The notes below the pieces were generated by a model. The model ran no database searches and was not told the DNA's origin. It saw nothing but the letters and a program-made list of their open reading frames with translations. Made by a program: the position numbers and the translations under genes. From the NCBI GenBank assembly GCA_944324225.1, contig CALUVL010000001.1:124001-188000 (forward strand): a DNA stretch of 64,000 nt, in the 5' to 3' direction. Origin of the DNA: Candidatus Gastranaerophilales bacterium (GTDB taxonomy: Bacteria > Cyanobacteriota > Vampirovibrionia > Gastranaerophilales > Gastranaerophilaceae). This document shows positions 7,390 through 25,375 of the stretch, in pieces; positions within the stretch are counted from its first letter, which is position 1; the number at the start of each line of letters is the position of its first letter.

Positions 7390-7418
7390 TTGCCAAATAA
7401 AAAAATTTAATTTATAAT
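7390..7418 (+). promoter_or_regulatory. Promoter of prepilin gene 1
   Basis: TTGCCA at 7390-7395 and a perfect TATAAT at 7413-7418 are separated by 17 nt, a near-consensus sigma-70 promoter. Transcription would start around 7425, just upstream of AGGAGG (7438-7443) and the ATG at 7451. Confidence 0.8.
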
Positions 7419-7450
7419 AAAAAAGTAACTAAGTATTAGGAGGCTGAAAA

Positions 7451-8237
7451 ATGGCGCTATTATTGAATTTCAGGGGGGGGGGGGCACCCCAAAAGTAAGC
7501 TCCTGAAAGGTTTTACAATGGCCGAGGTTTTGATAACACTTGGCATCCTTGGTGTTGTTATTGCAATGACTTTACCTGCACTAATTGCAAAACACCATGA
7601 AAGAGTTTGGCTGACCCAATTTCAGAGGGTTTATACAACCTTATATCAGGCATATTATAGTGTTTACACGGATTATGGCACAGCGAACGAATGGGGGATT
7701 GACGGATCCGAAGAATCATTAAAAAGAGCTTATGATATGCTTGCAAAATATCTTAATGTCGGTGTTGAATACGGATTTAAAAGGCCTAATTATATTGTAT
7801 ATAAGGATTTGAATAACGGTGATATTGGGAATAAAGGAAATACATGGTTTTTTAAGGCTGAATCTTATAATTTTACACTGTCGGATGGCTCAATGATAGG
7901 TCTTGAATACGATAGTGAGGTTCCGGGCTTGCTGCTTGATGTAGATATAAACGGCGAAAAAGGCCCTAATGTACTTGGAAAAGATTTATTTTATCTTTCT
8001 CTTGTAAGCAGAAGAAAGGCACCAGCAATATCGGGCTGGCCCAAATGGTGGGTTGCAACTCGTGTAAAATGTTCGATAACACAAGATAGTGATTGGTGGA
8101 ATGGTGGAGCCTGTGCAAACTGGATCATAGCAACGGGTAATATGGACTATCTTCATAGAGAAATTCCTCTTGATGAGTGGCAAAGTATTGTAACTCCTCT
8201 TCTTATTCCTTATAATAAAGATGGTCAGCTGCCATAA
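7451..8237 (+). CDS. Type IV prepilin-like protein 1, leader out of frame at a G12 tract
   Basis: The mature pilin core begins GFTMAEVLITLGILG; prepilin peptidase would cut between Gly and Phe, with the essential Glu at position 5. The uninterrupted ORF starts only at the ATG at 7518, which lies inside the mature protein, so that start cannot give a processed pilin. A well-placed start with AGGAGG and 7-nt spacing is at 7451. It reads MALLLNFRGGG into a run of 12 G (7473-7484) and then stops at 7496. With 11 or 14 G the same start reads HPKSKLLKGFTMAEV straight into the pilin. The pilin frame upstream of 7518 has a stop at 7464 and no usual start after it. The gene is therefore either switched off, rescued by slippage, or affected by a homopolymer sequencing error. 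The C-terminal part has paired Cys and many Trp. Confidence 0.8.
7473..7484 (+). repeat. Poly-G tract (G12) in prepilin leader 1
   Basis: Twelve consecutive G encode the Gly part of the leader. One base fewer restores the frame between the start at 7451 and the pilin. Confidence 0.85.
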
Positions 8238-12463: not shown

Positions 12464-12492
12464 TTGTCAAATGTGCTGAAATAAATTATAAT
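12464..12492 (+). promoter_or_regulatory. Promoter of prepilin gene 2
   Basis: TTGTCA at 12464-12469 and TATAAT at 12487-12492 are separated by 17 nt. The motif ATAATAAAAAAGTAA after the -10 region is shared with prepilin gene 1, so the two promoters are homologous. Confidence 0.8.
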
Positions 12493-12539
12493 AAAAAAGT
12501 AAACGTTAAATGTAGGATATAGGATATAGGAGGCTAAAA

Positions 12540-13323
12540 GTGGCGCTATTATTGAATTTACGGGGGGGGGGGGCACCCGCAAAATAAGCTCCTGAAAGGT
12601 TTTACCATGGCCGAGGTGTTGATAACACTCGGTATTCTTGGTGTCGTAATCGCAATGACACTTCCAGCATTAATTCAACAGTATCAGAAAAGAGAAATAA
12701 CCGTAGCCTTAGAGAAGATGTACACAACCCTGATGCAGGCCGCAAACACATATCAGGCATTGAATGAGGTTTACATAACAGACTTTGATACGTCTTTATC
12801 CGCTAAAGATTTTATGGAAACGTATTTTAATCCGTTTTTGAATATTTCAATGGTTTGCAAGGACGATAAAGACTGCTGGGAAGGCAAGCGTCAGTCAAAA
12901 GCGATAGACCAGACTACGGACATAAAGTTAGACTATGGTGTAATTCTCGCAGATGGTCGTATTTTGGGAGTAACAAAACATAATGGCGGCGTTTTATTTT
13001 TCTTTGATGCAGACGGCCCATCAGGTTTTAACAGATCAGGTCACGATATATTCAATTATTTTTTAATAAATGCCCGCACCTTAGGAACACATGAAGGCTG
13101 TGAAAACACAATGAAAACCTTGCAATCTGGTATATATCCCGGAAGTTATGGTGCTTGTTTCATACCATTTACAAGCTATTCAAGAGAAGAGCTTCTGGGT
13201 ACCTCAATACACAGATCGTGCAATAAAAATGCGCAGATGGTAAATAGTATGTCCGGTGACGCCTGTGCCGCATTGATTATGCAGGATGGTTGGGAGATGA
13301 AGAAGGATTATCCTGCTTGGTAA
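12540..13323 (+). CDS. Type IV prepilin-like protein 2, leader out of frame at a G12 tract
   Basis: This is the same arrangement as the gene at 7451. AGGAGG (12528-12533) and a GTG at 12540 start MALLLNLRGGG, run into 12 G (12562-12573) and stop at 12585. With 11 or 14 G the frame continues HPQNKLLKGFTMAEVLITLG. The continuous ORF begins only at the ATG at 12607, two residues after the Phe that should be residue 1 of the mature pilin. The mature parts of the two pilins diverge after the N-terminal helix. This one ends with a Cys-containing tail, a DGW motif and DYPAW, as is common in pilins of this lineage. Confidence 0.8.
12562..12573 (+). repeat. Poly-G tract (G12) in prepilin leader 2
   Basis: Twelve G in the same position and phase as in prepilin leader 1. 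One base fewer fuses the upstream start to the pilin. Confidence 0.85.
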
Positions 13324-22651: not shown

Positions 22652-23902
22652 ATGGAGAATTTTGATTTAGGAATTGTCGGCGGCGGGCCTGCCGGATATA
22701 CAGCGGCTTTTCAGGCAAGAAAAAGAGGGATGGATGTTGTTTTGTTTGAAAAAGATGAATTGGGCGGGGTATGTTTGAATCGCGGATGCATTCCTACCAA
22801 AACAATTCTTCATTCGGCAGAAGTTTTTGAACAAATGAAAAGTGCTGCAGAACTCGGTATTGAGTCAGATAATTTAAGAGCAAATTTTTCAAAAGTTATG
22901 GAACATAAAGATAAGATTGTTGAAAAGCTTCGAAAAAATCTTGCTCTTTCCCTTAAAAATTCAGGTACGGTTGTGATAAAAGAATTTGCTGAAATTCTGG
23001 ATTCACATACCATTAAAGCAGGTGGACAAACTTATCATTGTGAAAAAATTATCTCAGCAATCGGTTCTGTTCCGTCGGATTTGCCGGCTGTAAAATTTGA
23101 CGGCAAGTTTATTTTGAGTTCCGATGATATTTTGAATTTAAAGGTACTTCCTAAAAGTATTGTCATTGCAGGATCTGGTGCAATCGGAACAGAATGGGCA
23201 AGAATATTTGCGTCTTTTGGAGTTGATGTGACAGTTGTAGAGTTTGCCCCTCATCTTTTACCGAATGCCGATGTGGAAGTTTCAAAGAGGCTTGAGAGAA
23301 TTTTTAAAGTCGGAAAAATTAAGTATTATACATCAACCGCAGTTGAAAAAGTAGAAATTATTAATAATTCAGTAGTGAAGGTTTATCTTTCAAACGGTGA
23401 AATTCTTGAAAGTCATTGTGTATTACTTGCTACTGGTAGAAAGCCTGTAAATTGCCAGAGAATTGATGGAGTAAGTTATATTGGAGATGTTTCAGGCTCA
23501 ATTCAACTTGCGCATTATGCAATCAGGCAGGCTCTTGATGAGATTGGACAGGTTTCTTATGATGAAAAATTAATTCCATCCGTAATCTATGGATGTCCAG
23601 AAATTGCATGGGCAGGATTAAGGGAACAGGATTTAGCGGAAGACAGTTATAAAAAATCGGTTTTCCTCATCTCGGCTCTTGGTAAATCTCATTGTGACAA
23701 CTGCACTGACGGGTTTGTTAAAATTTTAAGCAGTGACGGATTGATTGTCGGGGCTCATATTGTGTCTAAAGAGGCTTCAGCACTTATTGAACAGCTTATT
23801 ATTGCAATGCAAAATAAAATTCCGGTTGAAAAACTCAAAGAAACATGCTTTGCGCATCCGACATACTCGGAAGGTATATTTGAAAGCCTGTGCAATTTAT
23901 AG
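22652..23902 (+). CDS. lpdA: Dihydrolipoyl dehydrogenase (E3), shortened
   Basis: This is a 416-residue FAD/NAD disulfide oxidoreductase. The FAD motif GGGPAGYTAAFQA is at the N-terminus, the redox disulfide motif is GGVCLNRGCIPTK, the NAD motif is GSGAIGTEWARIFASFG and the C-terminal base motif is AHPTYSE. E3 enzymes usually have about 460-475 residues. Here roughly 25 residues are missing after LLATGRKP, where the strand with RTSVPGIYAIGD normally sits, and the next segment is also compact. All catalytic motifs are present. With lipA nearby it fits a lipoate-dependent 2-oxoacid or glycine cleavage complex. Confidence 0.88.
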   Translation: MENFDLGIVGGGPAGYTAAFQARKRGMDVVLFEKDELGGVCLNRGCIPTKTILHSAEVFEQMKSAAELGIESDNLRANFSKVMEHKDKIVEKLRKNLALSLKNSGTVVIKEFAEILDSHTIKAGGQTYHCEKIISAIGSVPSDLPAVKFDGKFILSSDDILNLKVLPKSIVIAGSGAIGTEWARIFASFGVDVTVVEFAPHLLPNADVEVSKRLERIFKVGKIKYYTSTAVEKVEIINNSVVKVYLSNGEILESHCVLLATGRKPVNCQRIDGVSYIGDVSGSIQLAHYAIRQALDEIGQVSYDEKLIPSVIYGCPEIAWAGLREQDLAEDSYKKSVFLISALGKSHCDNCTDGFVKILSSDGLIVGAHIVSKEASALIEQLIIAMQNKIPVEKLKETCFAHPTYSEGIFESLCNL

Positions 23903-24532: not shown

Positions 24533-25375
24533 ATGCAAAAAAGGTTGCCAGATTATTTAAAAAGGCCGATTATTGACACGGAAAAAACGAAAAATGTAAG
24601 GCGAATTTTGAGAGAGAATTGCCTGAATACTGTCTGTGAAAATGCGAGATGTCCGAACAAAAATGAGTGCTATACTTGTAATACAGCGACTTTTTTAATT
24701 ATGGGTAATGTCTGTACTCGAAATTGCAGGTACTGTAATATAGGATGTGAAAAACCTCAAAAATTAGATCTTAATGAACCGTTACATATTGCACGTGCCG
24801 TTAAAGATTTGGGGTTAAAATATGCTGTTATAACTTCTGTCACAAGAGATGATCTACCTGATGGAGGTGCCGAACATTTTGCTAATTGTATTTATGAAAT
24901 TCGTAAACTTGCGCCTGATGTGAAAGTTGAAATTTTGACTCCCGATTTTAGGGGCAGTAAAATCTCTTTAGATAAGATTATTGAAGCAAATCCTGCAGTT
25001 TTTAACCATAATATTGAAACGGTAAAATCTCTTTTTAAAACAGCACGTCCACAGGGAAATTATGATATTTCGCTGGAAGTTTTGAAATACGTAAAAGACA
25101 ATAGCCAAATTATTATAAAATCAGGTTTAATGGTAGGGCTTGGCGAAACTTTTGAACAAATAGAAGAAACTTTGCTGGATTTGAGATCTTCTGGAGTTGA
25201 TATTCTCACTATCGGACAATACATACAGCCGTCAAAGGCGCACCTTGAAGTTGCTAAATATTATACCCCTCAAGAGTTTGAAGAATTAGACAAACTTGCC
25301 TTGAAAATCGGTTTTACCCACCGCCAGATAGGCCCGCTTGTCAGAAGTTCTTATCGTGCTGCGGAATTGGTTTAA
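24533..25375 (+). CDS. lipA: Lipoyl synthase
   Basis: This 280-residue radical SAM enzyme inserts two sulfurs into octanoyl groups. The auxiliary cluster motif is CENARCPNKNEC (about residues 35-46). The SAM cluster motif is CTRNCRYCNI (about 61-70). The C-terminal RSSYRA serine motif that binds the auxiliary cluster is at the end. Length is typical. No lipB or lplA is seen nearby. It lies shortly after the E3 gene. Confidence 0.96.
   Translation: MQKRLPDYLKRPIIDTEKTKNVRRILRENCLNTVCENARCPNKNECYTCNTATFLIMGNVCTRNCRYCNIGCEKPQKLDLNEPLHIARAVKDLGLKYAVITSVTRDDLPDGGAEHFANCIYEIRKLAPDVKVEILTPDFRGSKISLDKIIEANPAVFNHNIETVKSLFKTARPQGNYDISLEVLKYVKDNSQIIIKSGLMVGLGETFEQIEETLLDLRSSGVDILTIGQYIQPSKAHLEVAKYYTPQEFEELDKLALKIGFTHRQIGPLVRSSYRAAELV

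Follow-up and report, generated by a model that had tools for sequence, protein, structure and literature searches.

Out-of-frame type IV prepilin genes behind poly-G and poly-C tracts in Gastranaerophilales: probable slipped-strand switches

Introduction

Most of what is known of phase variation comes from cultured pathogens. In Neisseria, the pilus gene pilC carries a poly-G tract early in its coding sequence, in the region of the signal peptide, and slippage in this tract switches the reading frame.

A comparable arrangement has been shown experimentally for the sortase-dependent pili of Bifidobacterium breve UCC2003. Tracts of G10–G11 put the operons of both bbr_0113 and bbr_1889 out of frame; the loci are OFF as sequenced. 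Omitting a single base brings leader and pilin back into one frame, and in mice there is enrichment for the ON length (Penno et al. 2022; PMC9187656). Poly-C and poly-G tracts are also mentioned in type III methyltransferases (PMC3711429).

The window examined here is a stretch of 64,000 nucleotides of DNA from a Candidatus Gastranaerophilales bacterium (GCA_944324225.1), a gut organism related to cyanobacteria but non-photosynthetic. Like the B. breve operons, its first prepilin gene has an intragenic G tract that separates the pilin frame from a translated leader, is OFF as sequenced and belongs to a gut commensal. B. breve, however, is an actinobacterium with two such operons, encoding sortase pili with a Sec signal, whereas in Gastranaerophilales, which are cyanobacterial relatives, the genes encode type IV prepilins, reach up to 67 copies per genome, use either G or C, and have the tract inside the prepilin leader peptide. 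Compared with Neisseria PilC, a pilus-associated adhesin present in few copies, it is the pilin subunits themselves that carry the tract, and they form large families. Methyltransferases of the phasevarion type, which also occur in the window's genome, share the intragenic poly-G tract and the mixed phase among copies; unlike in the prepilin loci, the tract lies inside the enzyme domain and no single wrong frame dominates.

Literature searches, confined to open-licence papers, returned no earlier report for Gastranaerophilales. If the tracts act as argued below, an uncultured gut bacterial order places tens of its type IV pilin genes under the control of homopolymer switches; most of these genes are OFF, and the repeated base is G or C according to the gene.

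Architecture of the prepilin genes in the window

The first gene has the following features (a slash marks the prepilin cleavage site).

7390–7418, plus strand: sigma-70-type promoter, TTGCCA-17-TATAAT, 11 of 12 matches
7438–7443, plus strand: Shine–Dalgarno (SD) sequence, AGGAGG
7451–7498, plus strand: leader reading frame as sequenced (OFF state), MALLLNFRGGGAPQK followed by a stop; ATG at 7451, TAA at 7496–7498
7473–7484, plus strand: G12 tract, putative slip site; the ATG frame is one nucleotide too long for the pilin frame
7485–8237, plus strand: pilin frame from the tract onwards, HPKSKLLKG/FTMAEVLITLG..., type IV prepilin (TIGR02532), stop-free region
7499–7504, plus strand: GCTCCT, complementary to the SD sequence; possible start-site hairpin, suggested only by locus-matched complementarity

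With 12 or 13 G, the ATG frame ends after 15 or 18 amino acids, respectively. With 11 it encodes a prepilin of 261 amino acids, and 14 gives the same frame as 11. Upstream, the pilin frame is closed by TGA at 7464–7466, 48 nucleotides before the F codon (7512), and no ATG, GTG or TTG was found in this frame from that stop to the mature protein. These results bear out a preliminary description of the locus, according to which the start at 7451 has AGGAGG and a strong promoter, reads to a stop at 7496 with 12 G, and would be joined to the pilin frame by 11 or 14 G, that frame having no usual start of its own upstream of the mature protein, given the TGA at 7464. That description drew the cleavage as KGF/TMAEV, which needs correction: prepilin peptidase cuts before F, i.e. 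KG/FTMAEV. A restart at ATG 7518 was also considered and rejected; the leader peptide would be lost, and relatives with FTLAEV mostly have no start there.

The second gene is built in the same way.

12464–12492, plus strand: promoter, TTGTCA-17-TATAAT, read by eye
12528–12533, plus strand: SD sequence, AGGAGG
12540–12587, plus strand: leader reading frame with GTG start, VALLLNLRGGGAPAK followed by a stop
12562–12573, plus strand: second G12 tract, in the same phase as the first
12574–13323, plus strand: prepilin frame, HPQNKLLKG/FTMAEV..., TIGR02532 above cut-off

On both strands of the window, G runs of at least eight occur in two places only, 7473–7484 and 12562–12573. They account for 10 overlapping 8-mer matches, compared with a mean of 0.49 and a maximum of 5 in shuffled sequence. 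Both precede prepilins, and their leaders are near-identical.

Both products have the cleavage and methylation motif GFxxxE followed by a hydrophobic helix, as required of a type IV prepilin. TIGR02532, the domain for prepilin cleavage and methylation, scores above cut-off in both, and in L021, an in-frame relative from the window's genome. With Pfam N_methyl the two window genes fall just under the cut-off, with L021 above it; the latter also matches PF20318 (DUF6613, 1e-18). A prepilin peptidase gene (PF01478) is present in the same genome at C17:36258.

Size and spread of the family

The window's genome (G000, 1.93 Mb) contains 20 G runs of at least nine. Most belong to prepilin leaders of the type described above, four lie in DNA methyltransferase genes, and one is outside any evident gene. 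There are approximately 13 poly-G prepilin genes, only one of which is in frame. Exact matches to the prepilin motif number 40, and those without a tract mostly have an ordinary in-frame start close to the cleavage site, only a few codons upstream. The copy number of tract genes in this genome is a lower bound, because repeats break the assembly at contig ends; identical tract leaders are seen at the ends of contigs C1 (231473–231484) and C8 (71521–71532) and at the start of C14 (47–58). At L016 (C13:57230–57241) a G12 run has neither an evident reading frame nor a prepilin leader. Three further loci of this genome (L010, L017 and L019) have leader-to-pilin joins of 188–383 nucleotides, which resemble translated dispersed repeats (CHPEP...RPQND) and are kept open in the pilin frame.

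Related loci were sought with a pattern consisting of GGAG, a G run and the prepilin motif, which is blind to frame. Because the pattern needs a run of eight or more G or C, shorter tracts were sampled only via neighbouring genes and motif searches; the genomes compared are metagenome assemblies, one per species. The poly-G pattern is matched by 13 of 14 genomes of the window's genus and, in the whole family, by 69 of 383 genomes in 10 of 41 genera. None of 79 genomes from other families of the class matches it. The poly-C version is found in 38 of the 383 genomes (four genera). In one genome, G210, there are 49 poly-G and 18 poly-C matches. Named records that match are mostly Candidatus Gastranaerophilales or Melainabacteria metagenome-assembled genomes, and viral contigs gave no match.

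Reading frames and tract lengths

The frame of each locus was taken as the number of nucleotides separating its SD-backed start from the pilin motif, modulo 3. Among the 86 loci of the window's own genus, 71 are +1, 10 are in frame and five are +2. Among all 206 poly-G loci, the corresponding numbers are 123, 22 and 61. Poly-C loci are mostly +2 (47 of 58, with five in frame), and in G210, 31 of the 32 loci fetched are +2 with G10, the remaining one being in frame with G11. Altogether, 28 of 296 G and C loci are in frame, hence 268 are not. After dereplication by assembly and lengths, with assemblies grouped by hand, the in-frame count is 24 of 244, whereas chance would give one third (P ~8e-18, to be taken as a guide since the loci are not fully independent).

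The frame offset is conserved within a lineage and opposite between genera, with ~10% of copies in frame. Each lineage has its own prevailing wrong frame, irrespective of the base: +1 in the window's genus, at G11–G13, and in genus g7 the other one, at G10 and C10. Tract length is near-constant within a genome, and ranges from 8 to 15 across out-of-frame loci of both bases and many assembly projects. The 86 loci of the genus comprise 43 distinct combinations of leader and spacer length, 34 of which are +1; the state one base below the in-frame length is absent there. The nearest orthologues of the window gene (L024, L028) are all OFF. Permuting tract lengths among loci of the genus gave P <=5e-5 for maintenance of the frame; this test is not relied on, because a substitution at the tract edge exchanges leader length for tract length without altering the frame.

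State of the out-of-frame genes

Between tract and motif, the pilin frame is free of stops at 193 of 193 tracts, although frame was not used as a condition. In the other two frames, stops occur at 159 and 176 tracts. They are also more frequent than codon shuffling predicts, with 163 and 178 of 197 observed compared with 110 and 130 expected. An open pilin frame flanked by two stop-rich ones implies that ribosomes are meant to arrive from upstream, and that those in a wrong frame soon terminate.

The genes behind the tracts are well preserved. Out-of-frame pilins are intact in 168 of 173 cases, and dN/dS is 0.13–0.38, even for pairs in which both copies are out of frame. Judged by these substitution patterns, the out-of-frame pilin genes are not dead and are under purifying selection. 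Promoter-like sites are found upstream at 141 of 200 related loci, compared with 10.7 in shuffles.

A hidden start in the pilin frame can be ruled out for most loci. After the last stop, ATG, GTG and TTG are all absent from this frame in 120 of 184 out-of-frame genes, and the rest mostly have a TTG without an SD sequence. Intact prepilins without a tract of at least eight have an in-frame start in nearly all cases. One locus, L280, has its tract cut to G4 and a broken pilin; this is a single case.

Tract differences between close copies

Comparison of G lengths in related genomes had been proposed in the preliminary description as a check, and near-identical copies do differ at the tract. L021 is in frame, and L025, from a different genome in the genus, is out of frame. 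Their alignment covers 2307 bp and contains four mismatches and only two gaps, both flanking the tract. Copies with identical or near-identical leaders also differ in G count elsewhere (L032/L083 and others; also G128:C3), and both ON and OFF lengths are present among close relatives (L021/L025; L032/L083).

Slippage and alternative explanations

The best reading of these data, and in our judgement a probable one, is that a repertoire of prepilin genes, mostly OFF, undergoes slipped-strand phase variation. On sequence grounds, the anatomy, the conserved out-of-frame state, the intact and selected pilins, the dependence on long G or C runs, and the tract indels between near-identical copies are established; reversible switching within a population is inferred. 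A simple repeat of sufficient length for slippage, positioned to determine the frame between start and pilin, is the criterion for a slipped-strand gene, and it is present in the window gene and family-wide. The same mechanism had been put forward in the preliminary description from one locus, and is now supported by comparison: the arrangement, with either G or C, recurs in hundreds of related prepilin genes, near-identical copies occur in different phase, and the B. breve pili provide an experimental precedent. That G and C runs are both used, that at least eight bases are needed, and that the same genome has methyltransferase genes in mixed phase all favour slippage at the level of DNA.

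According to this model, the G12 tract would be an ON/OFF switch operated by replication slippage in the leader-peptide region, and the prepilin gene behind it one of a dispersed repertoire. In the G12 state, translation would begin at 7451 and end at 7496, and no pilin would be made. Slippage to 11 or 14 G would bring the leader into frame with KG/FTMAEV, and the product could be matured by prepilin peptidase. With most copies one step from in-frame, few pilins would be expressed at a time per cell or lineage. Surface diversity or adhesion is the inferred use of such switching, which suggests that the kind of pilus made in the gut is chosen by low-frequency switching. It is also suggested that standard annotation loses tract-led pilin genes or assigns them wrong starts.

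Two observations are not predicted by plain slippage, namely one wrong frame per lineage (71 to 5 in the genus) and near-constant tract length. Slippage would also be under some restraint, because the genus as a whole has the mismatch repair genes mutS1 and mutL. If each lineage had a typical set point for tract length, and selection on the flanks kept the genes OFF at that point, most of the frame preference and constancy of length would be accounted for, though this is an inference. The conserved wrong frame raises the question of whether the tracts are poised DNA switches or sites of recoding.

Programmed recoding would leave the DNA fixed out of frame and set a low level of pilin via transcriptional slippage or ribosomal frameshifting. 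Transcriptional slippage had been named as an alternative from the outset, and recoding remains a live minority rival, since most loci within a lineage share one wrong frame instead of having random phases; we consider it unlikely. It would account for a wrong frame maintained through many leader and spacer lengths and for purifying selection on pilins that are out of frame in both species compared. It would also accommodate L198 (~5682, minus strand), where a tract interrupted as G6AG4 lies one nucleotide out of frame before an intact pilin of 212 amino acids; this single case is unexpected if slippage is the sole route to expression. Against these points, the sign of the offset is opposite between genera (+1 with G11–13, the other with G10 and C10), most well-sampled genomes contain in-frame copies, and bacterial transcriptional slippage has been described for A or T runs, not for G or C (PMC3711429). 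Ribosomal slippage would not need eight or more identical bases, nor would C and G suit it alike; together with the opposite signs, this disfavours ribosomal frameshifting as the sole mechanism. The genome-wide form of recoding, in which dozens of wrong-frame prepilin genes per genome would be expressed at a set low level through transcriptional slippage or frameshifting on poly-G and poly-C tracts, is slightly more doubtful again.

A large repertoire with few in-frame copies would also be expected if the out-of-frame copies were silent cassettes, i.e. donors without expression of their own until recombination or gene conversion transfers them to an in-frame copy. L146 and L224, from two related genomes, could be taken as an example: they are near-identical from the G tract through the pilin and unrelated upstream, with the junction at the tract. 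This may represent either exchange of promoter and pilin cassettes at the tract or a chimeric contig. Every copy has its own promoter, SD sequence and start, unlike promoterless donors, and the explanation is improbable.

Homopolymer errors masking ordinary in-frame genes, the other alternative named in the preliminary description, can be virtually dismissed even though all sources are metagenome assemblies without raw reads: 268 of 296 loci are out of frame over many species and projects, lengths of 8–15 and both bases, random errors would not hold one frame per lineage, and tract-less genes of the same genomes read in frame.

Element complementary to the Shine–Dalgarno sequence

An element after the tract is complementary to the SD sequence in a locus-matched manner, with a mean longest helix of 5.81 compared with 5.23 when arms are swapped between loci. 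Helices of 9–10 bp occur, and their sequence differs between lineages (e.g. L137, L135 and L227). Individual leader RNAs did not fold better than shuffles. The element may form a start-site hairpin; the evidence is suggestive at most, common descent of the two arms may play a part, and the single-locus folds do not speak in favour.

Methyltransferase genes in the same genome

The methyltransferase genes mentioned above lie at L014 (G000:C8:21500–33000), with G runs at 23279–23290, 24608–24617, 25267–25275 and 31311–31320 of C8. One methyltransferase-like gene is of the cytosine type and three are of the adenine/N4 type, each interrupted in its coding region by G9–G12; one is in frame and three are out. 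From its gene content and tracts, L014 is likely a phase-variable methylation cluster.
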